Source: Thermus sp. CCB_US3_UF1 (GTDB taxonomy: Bacteria > Deinococcota > Deinococci > Deinococcales > Thermaceae). Taken from it: a stretch of DNA of 64,000 nucleotides. The notes below the pieces were generated by a model. The model was not told where the DNA came from. It did not search any database and saw only the letters and a program-made list of their open reading frames with translations. This document shows, one piece after another, positions 31,238 through 47,162 of the stretch (within the stretch, counting starts at the first letter, position 1; every line of letters starts with the position of its first letter). Made by a program: the position numbers and the translations under genes. The stretch is from the NCBI RefSeq assembly GCF_000236585.1, contig NC_017278.1, positions 1,984,001-2,048,000 of the forward strand, given 5' to 3'.

Positions 31238-33249
31238 GAATGGTCCGAAATCTGCTTTTCGCCTTGGGGACCCTAGGGTTTCTGCTCGCAGGCTGTACGC
31301 CTGCCCAGCCCGACACCACCCCGCCCACCGTCACCATCTCCCAGCCCCAGGACGGCACCACCCTTAACACCAACCAAACCACCATCCAAGGTTCCGCCCA
31401 GGATAACGTCCGCGTAACCCGCATCACCTACCAGCTCAACGGAAGCAGCGAACAAAACCTCACCATCACCCCCGGCCCCACCGTCAACTTCTCCTTCCAA
31501 GTCACCCTCCAACAAGGCAACAACACCCTCACCGTCAACGCCTACGACGAAGCAGGCAACAAGGGGTCCAAAACCATTACCCTCACCTACGACCCTACAG
31601 CGGTCCACACCTTGAGGGGAACCGTGGTCCAGGAATACGCGGGAAGCCCCGTGCGTGGGGGTACGGTAAGGCTCTACAGGGGAACCGTGCTGGTCGCCTC
31701 AGCTACCACGGATACTGACGGAAACTTTGTGTTTTCCACTCTGCCTCCAGGAACTTATCGCCTCGAGGCCCAAAAATCCGGCATGGCAGGCAGCGTGATG
31801 GAGGGCATCCGGGTGCCCGAGATGAGCTCGGTTAGCCTCATCCAGAAGCCCGCCTTTGACGCCAGCCTGACCACCACACCCCCCACCTTGCGTATTACCC
31901 AAGACGGAAACCAACCCCTGGAAGGCCAGACCTTCACCGACGCCATTCCCTTCCGTATCCAGGTGGACACGGGCCAGGATTACGTCCGTCCCATGCGCTA
32001 CATCTATGTGGCCCTTGGCCGTACCCCAGGCTCGGCTTTCATCGCCAACAGCGCCACCTGGACCCGGCGCATCTTCAGTGACACCGAAGATACGGGTAAC
32101 CAAACCCTTTCTGGGAGCAACGTGGCTGGCTTCGGCAGCGCCGCCGGGGAAACGGTGTACCTGGAGGTGGTGGCCTACGACTTCAACCAAAACCGCAGCC
32201 ACTATCTGGTCCCCCTGACCTTCAAGAACACCTCCCCCACCCAAAACAACGCCGTGAGCGCCCCCACGGGGGTGGCGGCTACCGCCATCACCCTCACCCA
32301 GGCCGTAGGCTTCTACGAAGCCAAAGCGCCCGCTGCCTTTAGGGTTCCCGTGGCCAAAGGGGAGATGGGCGAACTCACCCTGGATCCCCAGGCGGTTCCT
32401 GACGGGAGCAACCTCTACGTGGAGGTGCGTTGGTGCTACACTGCCAGCGCCGTACCCTTCGCCTTTGACATCGAGCGGTCCACGGACGGCACCAACTGGC
32501 AGAAGGTGGGCACGGTGGGAGGTGCGCGAAGCTCTAGTTGCCCCAGCGCGCCCCTGAACCGCCCCTTCTTCTTCCGGGATGCCTCCCCCGACCTGACCCC
32601 CGGCCAGACCTACTACTACCGGGTGGTGGCCCGTGGAACCAACGCCGTTCCCAGCGCCTCCAGCTCCACCACGCCCCTTCCCCCCTTCTTTGCTCCCCTG
32701 CTGAGTCCAGCCGACGAAAGCCGAGGGATTGGCCTGAGGCCCGATTTCATGGTTGGGCACCCCCAGCTGGCGGCTGGAGCCGACGGGGCGGCTTACAACA
32801 TGGTCCTTTGGGACACCCTCACCGGGGATGCCGTGGCCTGGCAAACCCCGGCCGGCTACACCCTCCAGGTGGAGTTCGGCACGCCCGATAACGGCATCCC
32901 CAGCGGCGAGGCCCTGGTTTATGGCTTTGACCCCACAGCCAACAGAGTGGTGGTCTTCACCGACACCGCTGGGATCCAGGACCCCACCAAGCCCAACCGC
33001 GTACCCGTCAACGTGGCCCAGGGTACCGTGACCTTGCCCTATAACTTCGACGGCCTGGCCCAGCTTCCCGCCCTCCAGACCCTTCGCACCTACGCCTGGC
33101 AGCTTTACGTGAGCTACGCCTACAAATACAACCCGGCAGAGGGCTACCGTATCTCGGCCTACAGCGTGCAGACCTGGCCCAGCTCCACCTCGTTTATCCG
33201 CATCAGCCGGCCCGGCACCCAGGTCTTTGAGTTCACCACGGGGCAGTAA
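31234..33249 (+). CDS. Secreted lipoprotein with Ig-like, carboxypeptidase-regulatory-like and FN3-like domains
   Basis: This 671-residue protein starts at ATG 31234 with GGGAGGGAG upstream. The signal peptide ends in lipobox LLAGC (Cys21). Domains in order are an Ig-like domain (about 28-123, [12 protein letters not shown]), a carboxypeptidase-regulatory-like domain (about 127-190, [22 protein letters not shown]), then beta-rich regions including an FN3-like stretch (about 390-490). It is rich in Thr, Asn, Gln and Ser, and its codons are less GC-extreme than those of its neighbours. It is co-transcribed with a lipoprotein protease (gap 9 bp), suggesting a cell-surface adhesion/degradation module. 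No enzyme motif was found. Confidence 0.85.
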
Positions 33250-41483: not shown

Positions 41484-42059
41484 ATGGTCCGCTACCTCAA
41501 GGGCGTGGTCCTGCGCAAGGGGGAAGGGAGCTTCCTCCTCCTGGTGGGGGGGGTGGGGTTCCAGGTGCAGGCCCCCCCTTCCTTCGTCCAGGGCCTGCGG
41601 GAAGGGGAAGAGGTGGCGGTCCACACCCACCTCCAGCTCAAGGAGGAGGGCTTGGCCCTCTATGGCTTCCCCGAGGAGGAAAGCTTAAGCCTCTTTGAAC
41701 TCCTCCTCTCCGTGAACGGGGTGGGGCCCAAGGCCGCCCTTTCCCTCCTCTCCGCCCTTCCCCCCAGGCTTCTGGCCCAGGCCCTGGCGGAAGGGGACGT
41801 AAGGCTCCTCACCTCAGCCAGCGGGGTGGGAAGGAAGCTGGCGGAAAGGATCGCCCTGGAGCTCAAGGGCAAGGTGCCGCCCCACCTGGCCATTGGGGCA
41901 AAGGTGGAAAGCGCCGCCGCCGAGGAGGCCGTCTTGGCCCTGGCCGCCTTGGGCTTCAAGGAGGGCCAGGCCCGGGCCGTGGTCCTGGACCTCCTGGCCC
42001 AAAACCCAGGGGCCAAGGCCCAGGAGCTCATCAAGGAGGCCCTGAAGCGCCTGCGCTAG
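41484..42059 (+). CDS. ruvA: Holliday junction branch-migration protein RuvA
   Basis: This 191-residue protein has an OB-fold domain (1-63), two helix-hairpin-helix motifs (LLSVNGVGPKAALSLL and LTSASGVGRKLAERIALELKGK) and domain III (about 145-191), which contacts RuvB. It binds four-way junctions as a tetramer or octamer. Its ATG directly follows the paaG stop. The 3' end overlaps the convergent histidine kinase gene by 29 bp. Confidence 0.96.
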   Translation: MVRYLKGVVLRKGEGSFLLLVGGVGFQVQAPPSFVQGLREGEEVAVHTHLQLKEEGLALYGFPEEESLSLFELLLSVNGVGPKAALSLLSALPPRLLAQALAEGDVRLLTSASGVGRKLAERIALELKGKVPPHLAIGAKVESAAAEEAVLALAALGFKEGQARAVVLDLLAQNPGAKAQELIKEALKRLR

Positions 42060-43263
42060 GGGCGTTGAGGGGCAGGCGCAGGCGGGCCACCAGGCCGGAC
42101 GGGCTCCCTGGGAGGAGGAAAAGCTGTCCCCCGTGGGCCTCGGCCACCTTTTTGGCCACGGAGAGGCCAAGCCCCTCCCCCGGCTTGCGGGAGGTGCGGA
42201 AGAAGGGCCGGCCCGCCTCCTTGAGGGCCGCCTCCGGCATGCCGGGCCCCTGGTCCCTCACCTCCAAGACCGCCTCGCCGCCTTCCGTCCAAAGCCCCAC
42301 CTCCACCCCCCGGCCCTCCCCGTGCAGGAAGGCGTTGTGCAAGAGGTTCCTCAGGGCTTGGGCGAGGAGAAGGGGGTCCCCCAGGAAGGGCAGGGCCTCC
42401 GGGCCCCGGTAGGGGACCCCGAAGGCCCTGGCCTCCTCCTGGGCCAGGGCCGCCAGGTCCAGGGCCACCCGCTCCACCCGTCCCTCCCGGGCCAGGACCA
42501 GGAGGGCCTCCACCAGGCGCTTCATGCGCAAAAGCTCCTCCTTGGCCGCGGCCAGGGCCTCCTCCCGGGAAAGGTAGCCTGCCTCCGCCGCTTCCAGCTG
42601 GGCCAGGGCCGCGGCCACCGGGGTCCTGAGCTCGTGGGCCGCGTCCCGGGTGAAGCGGCGCTCCCGCTCCAAAAAGGCCCCAAGCCGCTCCAGCATGTGG
42701 TTGAAGCTCTCCGCCAAGGCCTTGAGCTCCCCCCCGCCCTCCGGGGCCACCCGGTGGGACAGGTCCCCCGAGTCCGCCACCCGCCGGGCCACCTCGGTGA
42801 GGCGGGCCAGGGGCCTCAGGGCCACCCCCGCCAGGCTCGAGGCCAAGAGGGCGAAAAGGAGGGTAAGGACCCCCCCCACCCCCAGGAGGGCCAGGCGGAA
42901 GTTGCGCAGGGCCGCCGCGGCCCCCGGATCGTACCGGGCCACGGTGAGGGTCCCCCCCGGGACCTCCAGGGCCAGGACCCGCCACCCCTCCCGCCAGTAG
43001 GCCCCGGGGGGGAGGTCGGGCAGGGGGGGGAAGTTGGCGCTTTCCTGCCGCTCCTCCCCCTGGACCAGGCGGAAGGCGAACTCCCCCCTGGGGGGCCTCC
43101 GCCCCTCGGAAAGGGCGTGGACGTAGAGGAAGAGGGACTGGTCCAGATCGGCCTCCACCAGGCGCCTAAAGGCCAGGTAGCTGAGCCCGCCCTGGAAGAG
43201 GAGGGCTAGCCCCACGGCCAAGGCCAGGAAGAGGGCCAGCCGGGTCCTAAGGCTCATGCCCAA
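42031..43263 (-). CDS. Sensor histidine kinase
   Basis: This 410-residue kinase has TM1 (about 7-27), a periplasmic sensor region (about 30-120), TM2 (about 123-150), HAMP (about 150-200), an H-box with the phospho-His in RRFTRDAAHELRTPVAAA, an N-box NLLHNAFLHG, a G1 DQGPGMP and a G2 GEGLGLSVAKKVAEAHGG. The start overlaps the response-regulator stop by 17 bp. Together they form a two-component system divergent from the apbE operon, which it probably controls. The signal is unknown. Confidence 0.94.
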   Translation of the reverse strand: MGMSLRTRLALFLALAVGLALLFQGGLSYLAFRRLVEADLDQSLFLYVHALSEGRRPPRGEFAFRLVQGEERQESANFPPLPDLPPGAYWREGWRVLALEVPGGTLTVARYDPGAAAALRNFRLALLGVGGVLTLLFALLASSLAGVALRPLARLTEVARRVADSGDLSHRVAPEGGGELKALAESFNHMLERLGAFLERERRFTRDAAHELRTPVAAALAQLEAAEAGYLSREEALAAAKEELLRMKRLVEALLVLAREGRVERVALDLAALAQEEARAFGVPYRGPEALPFLGDPLLLAQALRNLLHNAFLHGEGRGVEVGLWTEGGEAVLEVRDQGPGMPEAALKEAGRPFFRTSRKPGEGLGLSVAKKVAEAHGGQLFLLPGSPSGLVARLRLPLNAPSAGASGPP

Positions 43264-43906
43264 GCCGGTACCCCCCGGGGACGGTGCGCACCACCTCGGG
43301 ATGGAGCTTCTGCCGCAGGTAATGGACGTAGACCTTCACCGCCCCCACCTTCTCCCCATCCCCGAAAACCCGCTCCGCCAGCTCCTCCGGGGAAAAAACC
43401 CGCCCCGGGTGCAGGAGGAAGACCTCCAGCAGGGCGAACTCCCTCAGGGAAAGGTCCACCCGCCGTCCGGCCAGGTAGACCGCCCGGCCCGCCAGGTCGG
43501 CCTCCAAAGGCCCCAGGCGCACCCGGCTTTCCTTCACCTCGGCCACCCGGCGCAACAGGGCCCGCACCCGGGCCAGGAGCTCCTCCAGGTGGAAGGGCTT
43601 CACCAGGTAGTCGTCCCCCCCCAGGTCCAGGCCCTGCACCCGGTCCTCCAGGGCATCCCGGGCGGTGAGGAAGAGGATGGGGCCCTTGTAGCCCGCCTGC
43701 CGCGCCTCCTGGGCCAGGCGGAACCCCCCATCGGGATCCTCGGGCAGGCGGACGTCCAGGACCAAAAGGTCGGGCTCCAGCTCGCAAAAGGCCTCCCGGG
43801 CCTCCTCGAGGCCCTTGGCCCAGCGCACCCCGTAGCCCTGGGCCCGCAAGGCCCCCTCCACCGCCCGGCCCAGGTGGGGCTCGTCCTCCAAAAGGAGCAT
43901 CTGCAC
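43247..43906 (-). CDS. OmpR/PhoB-family response regulator
   Basis: This 219-residue protein has a receiver domain with the acidic pair at Glu7/Asp8, phospho-acceptor Asp51 (LLVLDVRLPE), and Lys in YLVKPFH. The C-terminal winged helix ends KVYVHYLRQKL and RTVPGGYRLG. GTG 43904-43906 is preferred as start because CATACT (43918-43913) lies 6 nt upstream (leaderless). The DNA-binding family recognises direct repeats at about 11-bp spacing, exactly the pattern seen in its upstream region. Confidence 0.94.
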   Translation of the reverse strand: MQMLLLEDEPHLGRAVEGALRAQGYGVRWAKGLEEAREAFCELEPDLLVLDVRLPEDPDGGFRLAQEARQAGYKGPILFLTARDALEDRVQGLDLGGDDYLVKPFHLEELLARVRALLRRVAEVKESRVRLGPLEADLAGRAVYLAGRRVDLSLREFALLEVFLLHPGRVFSPEELAERVFGDGEKVGAVKVYVHYLRQKLHPEVVRTVPGGYRLGHEP

Positions 43907-43912
43907 GCTTCC

Positions 43913-43984
43913 AGTATGCCCCCCTCGGGTTAGGCCGGGGTTACCGCCCCCCCTAACCCTTCCCTAACCGCCTTCCCCTACCCT
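43913..43984. promoter_or_regulatory. Two-component operator: mirrored TAACCC direct-repeat pairs between divergent leaderless promoters
   Basis: The leftward promoter has -10 CATACT (43918-43913) and the rightward promoter has -10 TACCCT (43979-43984), each 6-7 nt before its start codon. On the minus strand TAACCC occurs at 43943-43938 and 43932-43927. On the plus strand TAACCC occurs at 43954-43959 and TAACCG at 43965-43970. Both pairs have an 11-bp period. The near copy ends 21-22 nt upstream of each predicted start, so both pairs occupy the -35 region. Confidence 0.7.
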
Positions 43985-43991
43985 TGGGGGC

Positions 43992-44765
43992 ATGGGCAGG
44001 TACGGGGCCAGATGGGAAGGCGTCCTGGGAAGCTTCCTGGAGGTCCAGCTCCTGGCCCCTCCTTGGCGCAAGGGGATGGCCTTCCGGTCGGTGGTGGCGG
44101 AGATAGAGCGTCTGGAAGGCCTCTTCAGCCGCTACCGGGAAAGCGAGCTCACCCGCCTGGTGCGCCAGGGCGGGGGGAGGCCAAGCCCCGAACTCCGGGA
44201 GGTCCTGGCCTGGGCCCTGAGGCTTCAGGAGGCCACGGGCGGGGCCTTCCACCCCGCCCCCCGGCACGGGGGGGAGGCCCTCCGCTTTCACGGGGAGGAG
44301 GTGGAGGTCCTGGCCCCCTTGGACCTGGACGGCCTGGCCAAGGGGTACATGGCCGACCGGGCCGCGGAGGCCGCCCTGAGGGCCGGGGCCCGGGCGGCCC
44401 TGGTAAACCTGGGGGGGGACCTGGCCCGCAAGGGACCGGGCTGGGCGGCGGTGGGGGTGGAGGCCCCCAGAGGCCCGGACAACGCCCCCCCGGCCCTGAT
44501 CCTGAAGCTGGGGGAAGGAGGGGTGGCCACCAGCGGGGTGCGCCACCGGGGAGCCCACCTCCTGGACCCCCGCACGGGGAAGCCCGCCCCTGGCCTCCAG
44601 GCCACGGTCCAAGCCCCCAGCGCCCTCCTGGCCGACGGCCTGGCCAAGGCCCTCTTCGTCCTGGGGCGGGAGGCGGGGGCGGTCCTAAAGGGGTTTGGCG
44701 CCCAAGGGTACCTCTTCGGCCCCCAAGGCCCCGTGCCCTGCCCAGAGGGAGGGAAGGATGCTTAG
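43992..44765 (+). CDS. apbE: ApbE-type FAD:protein FMN transferase, no signal peptide
   Basis: This 257-residue protein has the ApbE motifs ATGGAFHPAPR, LDLDGLAKGYMADRA, ALVNLGGDLA and GGVATSGVRHRGAHLLDPRTGKPAPG, with the metal and FAD-binding residues. ApbE links FMN to Ser/Thr of target proteins through a phosphoester bond. Most ApbE proteins are exported; here no signal peptide or lipobox is visible, so it is predicted cytosolic. It is the first gene of apbE-DUF2271-PepSY. ATG 43992 lies 7 nt after TACCCT, so the message is leaderless. Confidence 0.9.
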   Translation: MGRYGARWEGVLGSFLEVQLLAPPWRKGMAFRSVVAEIERLEGLFSRYRESELTRLVRQGGGRPSPELREVLAWALRLQEATGGAFHPAPRHGGEALRFHGEEVEVLAPLDLDGLAKGYMADRAAEAALRAGARAALVNLGGDLARKGPGWAAVGVEAPRGPDNAPPALILKLGEGGVATSGVRHRGAHLLDPRTGKPAPGLQATVQAPSALLADGLAKALFVLGREAGAVLKGFGAQGYLFGPQGPVPCPEGGKDA

Positions 44766-45297
44766 GCGCTACTACAGCCGGAGGAGCTTCTTCAGGCGGG
44801 TCCTGGGAGGGGTCTTGGCCCTGGGCCTGGTCCGGGCCCAGGGGAAGCCCTGGCCCCCGGGGATGGAGCTCAGGGTCAGCTTCGCCTACGGGGGCGGGGG
44901 GCTGCGCTACCGCGCCCCCTACCTGGCCGTCTACGTGGAGGACGAGCGGGGCCACCTGGTGCGGACCCTGGCCCTCTTCCTCATGCCGGGGAAGGGGGAG
45001 CGGTGGTGGAACGAGCTCCGGCGCTACTTCAGCCTGGGCAGCCTGGAAGCCATGCGCACCCTCTCCGGCCCCACCCGGCCCCCAGGCCGGTACACCGTGG
45101 CCTGGGACGGGAAGGACGAACGGGGCCAGGCCGTGGCCCAGGGCAACTATTACCTCTGCGTGGAGTACGCCCGGGAACATGGCCCCTACGAGCTTTTCCG
45201 GGAGAAGGTGGAGCTGGGCGAGAAGGCCTTTCAGAAGAGCTACTCCCTGAGGGGGGAGCTGGTGGAGGTGGCCCTTGACTACGGCAAGAAGGCCTAA
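44758..45297 (+). CDS. DUF2271 protein with Tat signal, candidate flavinylated subunit
   Basis: This 179-residue protein begins with a twin-arginine motif SRRSFFRR (residues 7-14) and a hydrophobic stretch ending near VRAQG (about residue 29), then a beta-rich DUF2271 domain. The segment LSGPTRPPGRYTVAWDGKD (102-120) corresponds to the family segment often written SGATRxPG; Thr106 is a candidate FMN acceptor for the adjacent ApbE. Start ATG 44758 overlaps apbE by 8 bp. Tat export of folded, cofactor-loaded proteins fits a cytosolic ApbE. The family assignment is from memory of motifs. Confidence 0.8.
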   Translation: MLRRYYSRRSFFRRVLGGVLALGLVRAQGKPWPPGMELRVSFAYGGGGLRYRAPYLAVYVEDERGHLVRTLALFLMPGKGERWWNELRRYFSLGSLEAMRTLSGPTRPPGRYTVAWDGKDERGQAVAQGNYYLCVEYAREHGPYELFREKVELGEKAFQKSYSLRGELVEVALDYGKKA

Positions 45298-45889
45298 GCT
45301 GGGGGCCAGCCCTTGGCGGACCCGGCTCTACACCTGGGCCCGGGGCCTGCACCTTTACCTTTCCATGTTTTCCCTCCTGGCCATGCTCTTCTTCGCCCTC
45401 ACCGGCCTCACCCTGAACCACCCGGAGTGGTTTGGGGAGGGAAGGGTGCGGAAGCTTTCCGGCACCTTGCCCCATGCGCCCTACCTGGAAGGGGAGAAGG
45501 TGGCCTGGCTGGCCCTGGCGGAGGACCTGCGGAGCCTCGGCCTCCGGGGGCGGGTGGCCGAGCACGGGGAAAGCGGCGGGACGGCCTGGCTTTCCTTCCG
45601 GGCCCCCGGGTATGGGGCGGATGTCCAGGTGGACCCCAGGACGGGGGCCTACACCCTGACCCTCAGCGAGGCCGGGCTGGTGGCCGCCCTCAACGACCTG
45701 CACAAGGGCCGGGACACGCCGGGGGCCTGGAGATGGGTTTTGGACCTTTCCGCTTCCCTCCTGGCCCTCCTCAGCCTCACCGGGCTGCTATTGGGCCTTT
45801 TCCTGCGCAAGACCCGGCGGGTAGCCCTCTTGACCCTCCTCCTGGGCCTTGGGCTCTTCGGCGGCGTGGCCCTTTGGGCCGCAGGCTAA
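45275..45889 (+). CDS. PepSY-associated transmembrane protein, likely heme/redox membrane partner
   Basis: This 204-residue protein starts at TTG 45275, which has GGAGGTG 6 nt upstream inside the DUF2271 gene (23-bp overlap). It has TM1 (about 26-46), an extracytoplasmic PepSY-like region (about 50-140), TM2 (about 153-174) and TM3 (about 180-200). Histidines at His26, His49 and His143 (LNDLHKG) fall where PepSY-TM proteins carry heme or metal ligands. Together with ApbE and the DUF2271 protein it suggests a membrane electron-transfer unit; partner and substrate are unknown. Confidence 0.75.
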   Translation: MTTARRPKLGASPWRTRLYTWARGLHLYLSMFSLLAMLFFALTGLTLNHPEWFGEGRVRKLSGTLPHAPYLEGEKVAWLALAEDLRSLGLRGRVAEHGESGGTAWLSFRAPGYGADVQVDPRTGAYTLTLSEAGLVAALNDLHKGRDTPGAWRWVLDLSASLLALLSLTGLLLGLFLRKTRRVALLTLLLGLGLFGGVALWAAG

Positions 45890-46371
45890 AGCTCGTCCAG
45901 GGCCTCCCTGGGGGTCCTGTACGCCCCCAGGTGGCCGCCTTGGCGCAAGGCCAAGGGGAAGAGGGGCTCCGGAGGCCCTTCCAGGGCCAGGAGGTTCTCC
46001 CCGCGGAAGACCCTAACCCCCTCCGGGGGATCCCCCTCCAGGCCAAAGGGGAAGAGGGCCAAAAACCCCGGTCCGGGCTTCCCTTCCCCTCGGTCCAGGT
46101 AAAGGGCCACGGGCTCCAGGTATCCCAGGAGGCGGGTGCGGTGCATCTCCCGGCGCAAGGCCTGGAAGGCCCGCAGGTCCGCGGCTCCCTGCCAGAGGAG
46201 GAGGTCCGCCTCGGCGGAAAGCCCCACCAGGCTGTAGAGGGCCAGGAAACCCCCCTTGGCCTGCCAGCGGGCGAAAAGCCCTGATAGCTCCTCCTTCAGG
46301 TGCTCCTGGACTTCCGCCTCGAGGCGGCGGAACTCCGGCAGGAGGCGGAAGAGGCTAAAGGCCCAAAGCAT
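45886..46371 (-). CDS. Truncated chlorite-dismutase-family paralogue downstream of hemQ
   Basis: This 161-residue protein shows the segment GFLALYSLVGLSAEADLLLW followed by LLGYLEPVALYL. It aligns by eye with GVYQVVTQKADLLFLNL and FARYLRPAYGFYSVV of the adjacent HemQ. It corresponds mainly to the N-terminal half of the fold; the C-terminal half with the heme-pocket residues appears shortened. It begins 3 bp after the hemQ stop, so the two are co-transcribed. It may dimerise with HemQ or act as a non-catalytic partner (inference). Confidence 0.6.
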   Translation of the reverse strand: MLWAFSLFRLLPEFRRLEAEVQEHLKEELSGLFARWQAKGGFLALYSLVGLSAEADLLLWQGAADLRAFQALRREMHRTRLLGYLEPVALYLDRGEGKPGPGFLALFPFGLEGDPPEGVRVFRGENLLALEGPPEPLFPLALRQGGHLGAYRTPREALDEL

Positions 46372-46374
46372 GCC

Positions 46375-47127
46375 TCAGTCTACCCCCAGGAAGCGGGCCA
46401 AAGCCTCCTCGGAGAGGTAGCGGCCCACGTAGAAGGGGCCGAACTCGCCAAAGCGGGCGGACACCTCGTCAAAGCGCATCTCGTAGACGATCTTCTTGAA
46501 CTGGAGGGGGTCTTCGCTGAAGAGGTCCACCCCCCATTCCCAGTCGTCCAGCCCCTGGGCGCCGCTAATCACCTGCAAGACCTTCCCCTGGTACTTCCGC
46601 CCCGTCTCCCCGTGGGCCTTCATCAGGGCTGCCCGCTCCCGGGCGGGGAGCATGTACCAGTTGTCCTGCCCCTCCCGGCGCTTGTTCATGGGGTAGAAGC
46701 AGACGTAGCCCGACTTGGGCACCTTGGGGGTCAGGCGGGGCTTCACATAGGGGGCCTCGGGGTCCAGGGGTCCGGTCTGGCTCCCCAGCTCCACCACGGA
46801 ATAGAAGCCGTAGGCCGGGCGCAGGTAACGGGCAAAGCGGCTTTTGTTGAGGCCTTCCTCCACCCCCAACAGGGCCTCCAGGTCGGGGCGGAGGTTGAGG
46901 AAGAGGAGGTCCGCCTTCTGGGTGACCACCTGGTAGACCCCAAAAGAGCCCTTCCCCTCCGCCTCCACCTCCCGCCAGGCGGCGAGGAGGGCCCGTACCT
47001 CCTCCCAGGCCGCCCGCCGCTCCGCCAAGGGGGCCTGCTGCCAGGCGGGGTAGTCCAGGTGGCGGAAATCGTGGAGGATGTGCCAGCCCTCGAGGGTAAA
47101 GGTGGGCTCGGGTACGTGCCCTTCCAT
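46375..47127 (-). CDS. hemQ: Coproheme decarboxylase (HemQ, chlorite-dismutase family)
   Basis: This 250-residue protein catalyses the last step of the coproporphyrin-dependent heme pathway, converting coproheme to heme b. The second half holds the conserved SGYVCFYPMNKRREGQDNWYMLP block with the catalytic Tyr, MKAHGETGRKY with the proximal His, and VISGAQGLDDWEWGVDLF. ATG 47125-47127 is chosen because TATAGT (47140-47135) lies 7 nt upstream. An earlier GTG (47136) is inside that -10. It is divergent from mscS. Confidence 0.93.
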   Translation of the reverse strand: MEGHVPEPTFTLEGWHILHDFRHLDYPAWQQAPLAERRAAWEEVRALLAAWREVEAEGKGSFGVYQVVTQKADLLFLNLRPDLEALLGVEEGLNKSRFARYLRPAYGFYSVVELGSQTGPLDPEAPYVKPRLTPKVPKSGYVCFYPMNKRREGQDNWYMLPARERAALMKAHGETGRKYQGKVLQVISGAQGLDDWEWGVDLFSEDPLQFKKIVYEMRFDEVSARFGEFGPFYVGRYLSEEALARFLGVD

Positions 47128-47134
47128 GGCCTTC

Positions 47135-47162
47135 ACTATACGGGGAAACCCCTTTGTATATT
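47135..47162. promoter_or_regulatory. Divergent leaderless promoters of hemQ and mscS
   Basis: The leftward -10 TATAGT (47140-47135) lies 7 nt before the hemQ ATG; the rightward -10 TATATT (47157-47162) lies 6 nt before the mscS ATG. The gap between the genes is 41 bp, so their promoters must be interleaved. Confidence 0.55.

Follow-up and report, generated by a model that had tools for sequence, protein, structure and literature searches.

The intergenic region between a response-regulator gene and apbE in Thermus sp. CCB_US3_UF1 was analysed as part of a 64,000-nucleotide stretch of the genome, here called the window. The region contains two direct-repeat boxes in opposite orientations, and this twin-box arrangement is well supported as real, deeply conserved and of a known kind of system. 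The sequence from 43913 to 43992 was interpreted as two back-to-back activator-dependent promoters, each of which would consist of a TAACC-N6-TAACC box, 8 bp, a -10 hexamer and, 6–7 nt further on, the start of a leaderless gene. The regulator, when phosphorylated by its kinase, would occupy each box as a tandem dimer at the -35 position and, standing in for the missing -35 element, would recruit RNA polymerase (class-II-like activation). Both operons, its own regulator-kinase operon and apbE-DUF2271-PepSY, would be activated in this way. The full mechanism, in which one OmpR/PhoB-family regulator activates both operons via the two boxes, was given a probability of roughly 0.78. An earlier note on this DNA had proposed autoregulation and control of apbE by one regulator, with a mirrored operator; the conservation of the boxes and of their spacing supports the shared control, but the boxes are not one symmetric operator.

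Table 1. Features of the regulator–apbE region, with positions in the window
Feature	Position	Strand	Remarks
Sensor histidine kinase	42031..43263	minus	HAMP, HisKA, HATPase_c; same operon as regulator
OmpR/PhoB-family response regulator	43247..43906	minus	Start GTG 43906; Pfam Response_reg and Trans_reg_C
Putative -10 hexamer CATACT, regulator promoter	43913..43918	minus	8 bp from box, 6 nt from GTG 43906
Leftward regulator box TAACCCCGGCCTAACCC	43927..43943	minus	Two half-sites, 11-bp period; putative autoregulatory module
Gap between the two boxes	43944..43953		10 bp; length not conserved among species
Rightward regulator box TAACCCTTCCCTAACCG	43954..43970	plus	11-bp period; apbE module
Putative -10 hexamer TACCCT, apbE promoter	43979..43984	plus	8 bp from box, 7 nt from ATG 43992
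apbE, FAD:protein FMN transferase family	43992..44765	plus	Pfam ApbE, 2.8e-37
DUF2271 protein	44758..45297	plus	Pfam DUF2271, 4.9e-28; Tat-like start SRRSFFRR; SGPT at expected flavinylation site
PepSY_TM-like membrane protein	45275..45889	plus	Pfam PepSY_TM_like_2, 7.3e-33; last gene of predicted operon

The same layout was found on both sides, with the box followed by 8 bp, the -10, 6 or 7 nt and the start codon. The ends of the interval, 43913 and 43984, are the outer edges of the two putative -10 hexamers, and the boxes cover approximately -38 to -22. The two pairs of TAACC(C/G) direct repeats reported in the earlier note, with an 11-bp period and in opposite orientations, were confirmed base for base. 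The distances to the start codons reported with them are true as coordinate differences, both for the proximal repeats (43927-43906 = 21 and 43992-43970 = 22) and for the distal repeats (32 and 33); the bases intervening between the proximal repeat and the start codon number 20 leftward and 21 rightward.

Leaderless transcription in Deinococcus-Thermus is driven by a TANNNT motif located a few bp ahead of the ORF, and it is stronger when a -35 is added at the right distance (PMC12340547). Such a motif, ending approximately 6–7 nt before the start codon, was likewise present on the apbE side (TACCCT-N7-ATG). The regulator side (CATACT-N6-GTG) departs from TANNNT at the first base, which is C and not T in most species. 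A further difference from the known leaderless promoters is that the activator box here occupies the -35 region; no good -35 was recognised by eye beside the -10 of either window promoter. Leaderless starts at GTG 43906 and ATG 43992 are supported by the sequence layout.

The genome was searched for further boxes using patterns with mismatches. TAACCS-N5-TAACCS gave two matches in the whole 2.26 Mb genome, both at the regulator/apbE intergenic locus, and the reversed-pattern control gave none genome-wide. The box pair is not a chance occurrence. The looser TAAC-N7-TAAC was matched ten times genome-wide; the other copy in the window, at 31404, lies within a coding ORF and was taken as chance. 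None of the plasmid records matched the region.

Among 27 Thermus genomes searched, an orthologous regulator with at least 79% identity was found in 18, the window included; that of G020 is divided between two frames. The regulator-side box is kept in all 18 (the window and 17 others), and the distance from the end of its module to the start codon is 20 nt in 17 of them and 21 nt in G016. On the apbE side, the box and -10 are intact in 17/18, with the module invariably ending 21 nt before the start codon, and the sole exception is G017, which has lost apbE. The gene order HK-RR<>apbE-DUF2271-PepSY is common to the Thermus genomes with an intact operon, and the regulator orthologs share the start position, the start codon being GTG or ATG. 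Loss of the repeats where this gene order is kept had been named in advance as evidence against the earlier reading; repeats and spacing persist in every such Thermus locus and also in another genus.

The spacing within the box was similarly constrained. Within 100 nt upstream of the regulator gene, the pattern TAAC-Nk-TAAC occurred with k = 7 in 18/18 Thermus genomes and with any other k from 0 to 25 in at most one of the 18, compared to a mean of 0.04 in dinucleotide-shuffled regulator upstreams. When 17 left and 16 right modules from Thermus were aligned, the invariant blocks of the left modules (n = 17) were TAACC, CTAACC, the -10 ATACT and the TG of the start codon, and those of the right modules (n = 16) were TAAC, CTAACC, the -10 TA-CCT and the same TG. 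The third base of the right -10 deviated in one module of the 16, and most spacer columns were variable on both sides. No such box was found upstream of the 55–60% identical paralogous regulators that were examined.

In three species the apbE operon is broken and the regulator and its own box are retained. The apbE gene is frameshifted in G024 (L174) and fused to PepSY through a deletion in G010 (L175). In G017 (L173), apbE and DUF2271 are gone and PepSY is truncated; the left module is intact and the right box remains without a -10. The loss of this -10 along with apbE and DUF2271 was counted in favour of the proposed mechanism.

Outside Thermus, the same gene order was found in another genus of the same family (G071, L229:8020-8090), accompanied by a single box, GGTTAACCCCGCGTTAACC, composed of palindromic GTTAAC half-sites. 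As GTTAAC is its own reverse complement, either strand of the box shows direct repeats, and the spacing is correct for both divergent promoters, with 8 bp to the -10 on each side (TACCCT-N7-ATG and CATACT-N6-GTG). In genus g4 and its relatives, the regulator has 64–68% identity and apbE is no longer directly adjacent. The regulator promoter there typically reads TAACCC-N5-TAACCC, 8 bp, a CAnnnT hexamer and N6-ATG. A strict box was present in 21 of 27 loci outside Thermus, ending exactly 20 nt from the start in 17 of the 21; the six loci that lacked it all belong to family f4. That the regulator-side module is kept in other genera even without an adjacent apbE fits autoregulation.

Fourteen of the g4/g2 loci, and also G029, have a second box facing the other way. 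In g4/g2 the gene downstream of it mostly encodes a secreted DUF2680-like protein and is followed in several loci by a SHOCT gene; in G029 the box precedes a YbhB-like gene. These boxes have the 8-bp spacing to a CAnACT-type hexamer (AATACT in G029), and the hexamer is followed by a leader with, in most cases, an apparent Shine-Dalgarno sequence. Since the 8-bp spacing holds despite the leader, the box-to--10 spacing is the constraint, and the equal distances to the start codons in Thermus would be due to the starts being leaderless. The matched distances to the start codons to which the earlier note drew attention are real, but the constraint falls on the 8 bp between box and -10.

Adjacency and co-occurrence point to the neighbouring response regulator as the protein that would bind the boxes. 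Both its receiver (PF00072) and its winged helix (PF00486) scored above the Pfam cut-offs. In the alignment, the residues for phosphorylation (acidic pocket, Asp, Thr and Lys) were present in LEDE, LVLDVRLP, FLTARD and LVKPF, and the receiver is predicted to be phosphorylatable. Three Thermus orthologs and G071 share an identical recognition helix, GAVKVYVHYLRQKL, which is slightly changed in g4 and differs from that of a second regulator (RR2, see below) and from those of three other regulators of the window genome. The nearest curated model was PmrA (NF007928), with 153.2 bits against a cut-off of 330, and the nearest solved chains were PhoP of M. tuberculosis and BasR/PmrA. PmrA/BasR also binds tandem half-sites, but the minor-groove arginine of its wing is apparently missing in the Thermus regulator (PMC4660055), in which the wing is one residue shorter and lacks the arginine of the other aligned regulators (TVPG-GYR versus TVRGxGYR). 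A literature search on this two-component system of Thermus found no paper.

A third box with 8-bp spacing was observed at the end of the kinase gene in G007, G011, G012, G021, G023 and G026, preceding an outer-membrane efflux protein gene that starts 4–9 nt after the hexamer. By Pfam, the efflux operon of G021 continues with a second efflux protein, a HlyD-type adaptor, an ABC ATPase and MacB; the operons of G011 and G026 look like it, and in G008 and G010 such a box precedes other efflux-type genes. In some relatives, a MacAB-TolC-like operon is probably a further target of activation by the regulator. No efflux operon is present beside the kinase in the window genome, where the kinase abuts ruvA.

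Same-type boxes were also found before yceI-like genes and before a SHOCT gene that is followed in some species by RR2. In the window genome, the one-mismatch box TAATC-N5-CTAACC precedes an htrA-like protease gene (G000:C2:671630-671660), and look-alikes are listed in most Thermus genomes. A different TAAC-N7-TAAC box, followed by 8 bp, a TAnCCT-type hexamer and N8-ATG, was seen in several Thermus genomes (L183-L186, L190). It precedes a gene resembling ACP synthase III, across from a large gene for an ATPase-like regulator (with a SARP-like start in G008), and possibly represents the same promoter geometry with another winged-helix activator.

Boxes of this type raise the alternative that those in the window are real operators of another OmpR-family Thermus regulator, such as a regulator present in all 27 genomes or the one linked to SHOCT, or are shared by several. 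Some of the boxes before yceI-like, SHOCT and htrA-like genes sit in genomes without the present regulator, and more than one regulator may therefore read the box. Against this, strict boxes cluster at the present two-component locus and are approximately ten times commoner per genome where the locus exists; of those with a -10, 57 lie in the 18 genomes that encode the regulator and 3 in the 9 that do not, a difference that may partly be phylogeny, reflecting descent rather than cause. The regulator's own promoter also keeps the box across genera, and its recognition helix is conserved with it, unlike those of the other regulators aligned. The involvement of another regulator was considered rather improbable.

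It is also conceivable that the present regulator binds the boxes and represses, blocking polymerase at the -35 region of both promoters. The position of the boxes would allow this, and negative autoregulation is common among regulators in general. A repressor, however, needs no invariant 8-bp spacing, yet this spacing holds at the promoters of the regulator, apbE and efflux genes and at the g4 divergent promoters, whether or not a leader follows, and by eye no good -35 was recognised beside the -10 hexamers of the window. Repression was judged unlikely. Activation is preferred because the box-to--10 spacing is rigid, and the box stands at this fixed distance over or in place of the -35, as in class-II activation. 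The 11-bp period of the direct repeat is that of an OmpR/PhoB-type operator.

The mirrored symmetry pointed out in the earlier note holds for the matched promoter layouts but not for a single operator, since the distance between the boxes is free. In the window, the boxes are mirror-placed and 10 bp apart, and a higher-order complex bound to both together could couple the two promoters. Across species, however, they are separated by 6, 7, 8, 10, 11, 21, 25, 51 or 719 bp, and fixed helical phasing was rejected as the separations were scattered modulo 10.5. The boxes of G010 are separated by other sequence, with an MscS-like reading frame in it, and each keeps its own spacing. The 7-nt inner spacers shared 4.35 identities within a genome and 4.34 between genomes. 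The variable separation, with inner spacers that resemble each other no more within a genome than between genomes, argues against one symmetric operator, which was considered very unlikely, and against a hairpin. The opposite orientation does make the TAACC cores mutually complementary, but a nucleic-acid hairpin (terminator, cruciform or RNA structure) in place of a protein operator was rejected as highly implausible, as the boxes lie anywhere from 6 to 719 bp apart, their arms show no co-adaptation and the third-module loci have single boxes. The two boxes are two independent promoter modules.

The proposed activation at these modules has parallels in known systems. OmpR/PhoB-family regulators bind direct repeats as tandem dimers, the PhoP repeat being strictly 7 + 4 bp (PMC4832192). 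BqsR of P. aeruginosa, an activator of this family, binds TTAAG-N6-TTAAG, likewise two pentamers with an 11-bp period, and the proximal copy overlaps the -35 at a dissected promoter (PMC4682146). The half-site here is instead TAACC/CTAAC, and the promoters belong to a divergent regulator-target pair with predicted leaderless starts. The architecture I promoters of Salmonella PhoP (phoP, mgtA and others) also have a single directly oriented two-repeat box at a fixed distance from the -10, and PhoP activates its own promoter among them (PMC3335776). The box-to--10 distance is 12 nt there compared to 8 bp here, a count that depends on the half-site end chosen, and the half-sites are (T/G)GTTTA (PMC3335776).

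For the Thermus two-component system, the modules provide a predicted operator with testable base positions. In the leaderless promoters, the box, -10 and start codon would form one rigid unit, a model for activator action at such promoters. The separate, near and overlapping boxes, swapped targets and broken operons offer a natural series for the evolution of divergent regulator-target promoters. More tentatively, a cassette (TAACC-N6-TAACC, 8 bp, -10) may be kept beside one regulator across genera with its partner operon swapped between flavin electron transfer, DUF2680-SHOCT and the YbhB-like gene. The two copies of this cassette may have arisen from a single GTTAAC box driving both directions as in G071, or may merge into one, and several regulators may share the cassette as an envelope-stress code.

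The apbE-DUF2271-PepSY genes are predicted to form a flavin electron-transfer operon, which would tie flavinylation-type electron transfer to a sensor kinase. In other bacteria, ApbE flavinylates DUF2271, and PepSY-like proteins have been proposed to carry electrons across the membrane in flavinylation clusters (PMC8238504). As in the PepSY-like clusters (PMC8238504), the three families are encoded together in one operon, here in conserved order. Unlike in those clusters, there was no DUF4198 gene among the operon genes scanned, and SGPT was found in place of [S/T]GA[S/T] in all 15 Thermus DUF2271 sequences aligned. A further difference lies in the protein starts. The ApbE reading frame has no export signal and, in the aligned N-termini, apparently starts at the domain itself, whereas the Thermus DUF2271 proteins have a twin-arginine-like start (SRRSFFRR or close). 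These starts suggest that DUF2271 may be flavinylated in the cytoplasm before export by the Tat pathway. Convergent with the PepSY gene are two genes within 45886-47136, namely 45886-46371 and 46375-47136; the product of the first had a weak chlorite-dismutase/HemQ-type match.
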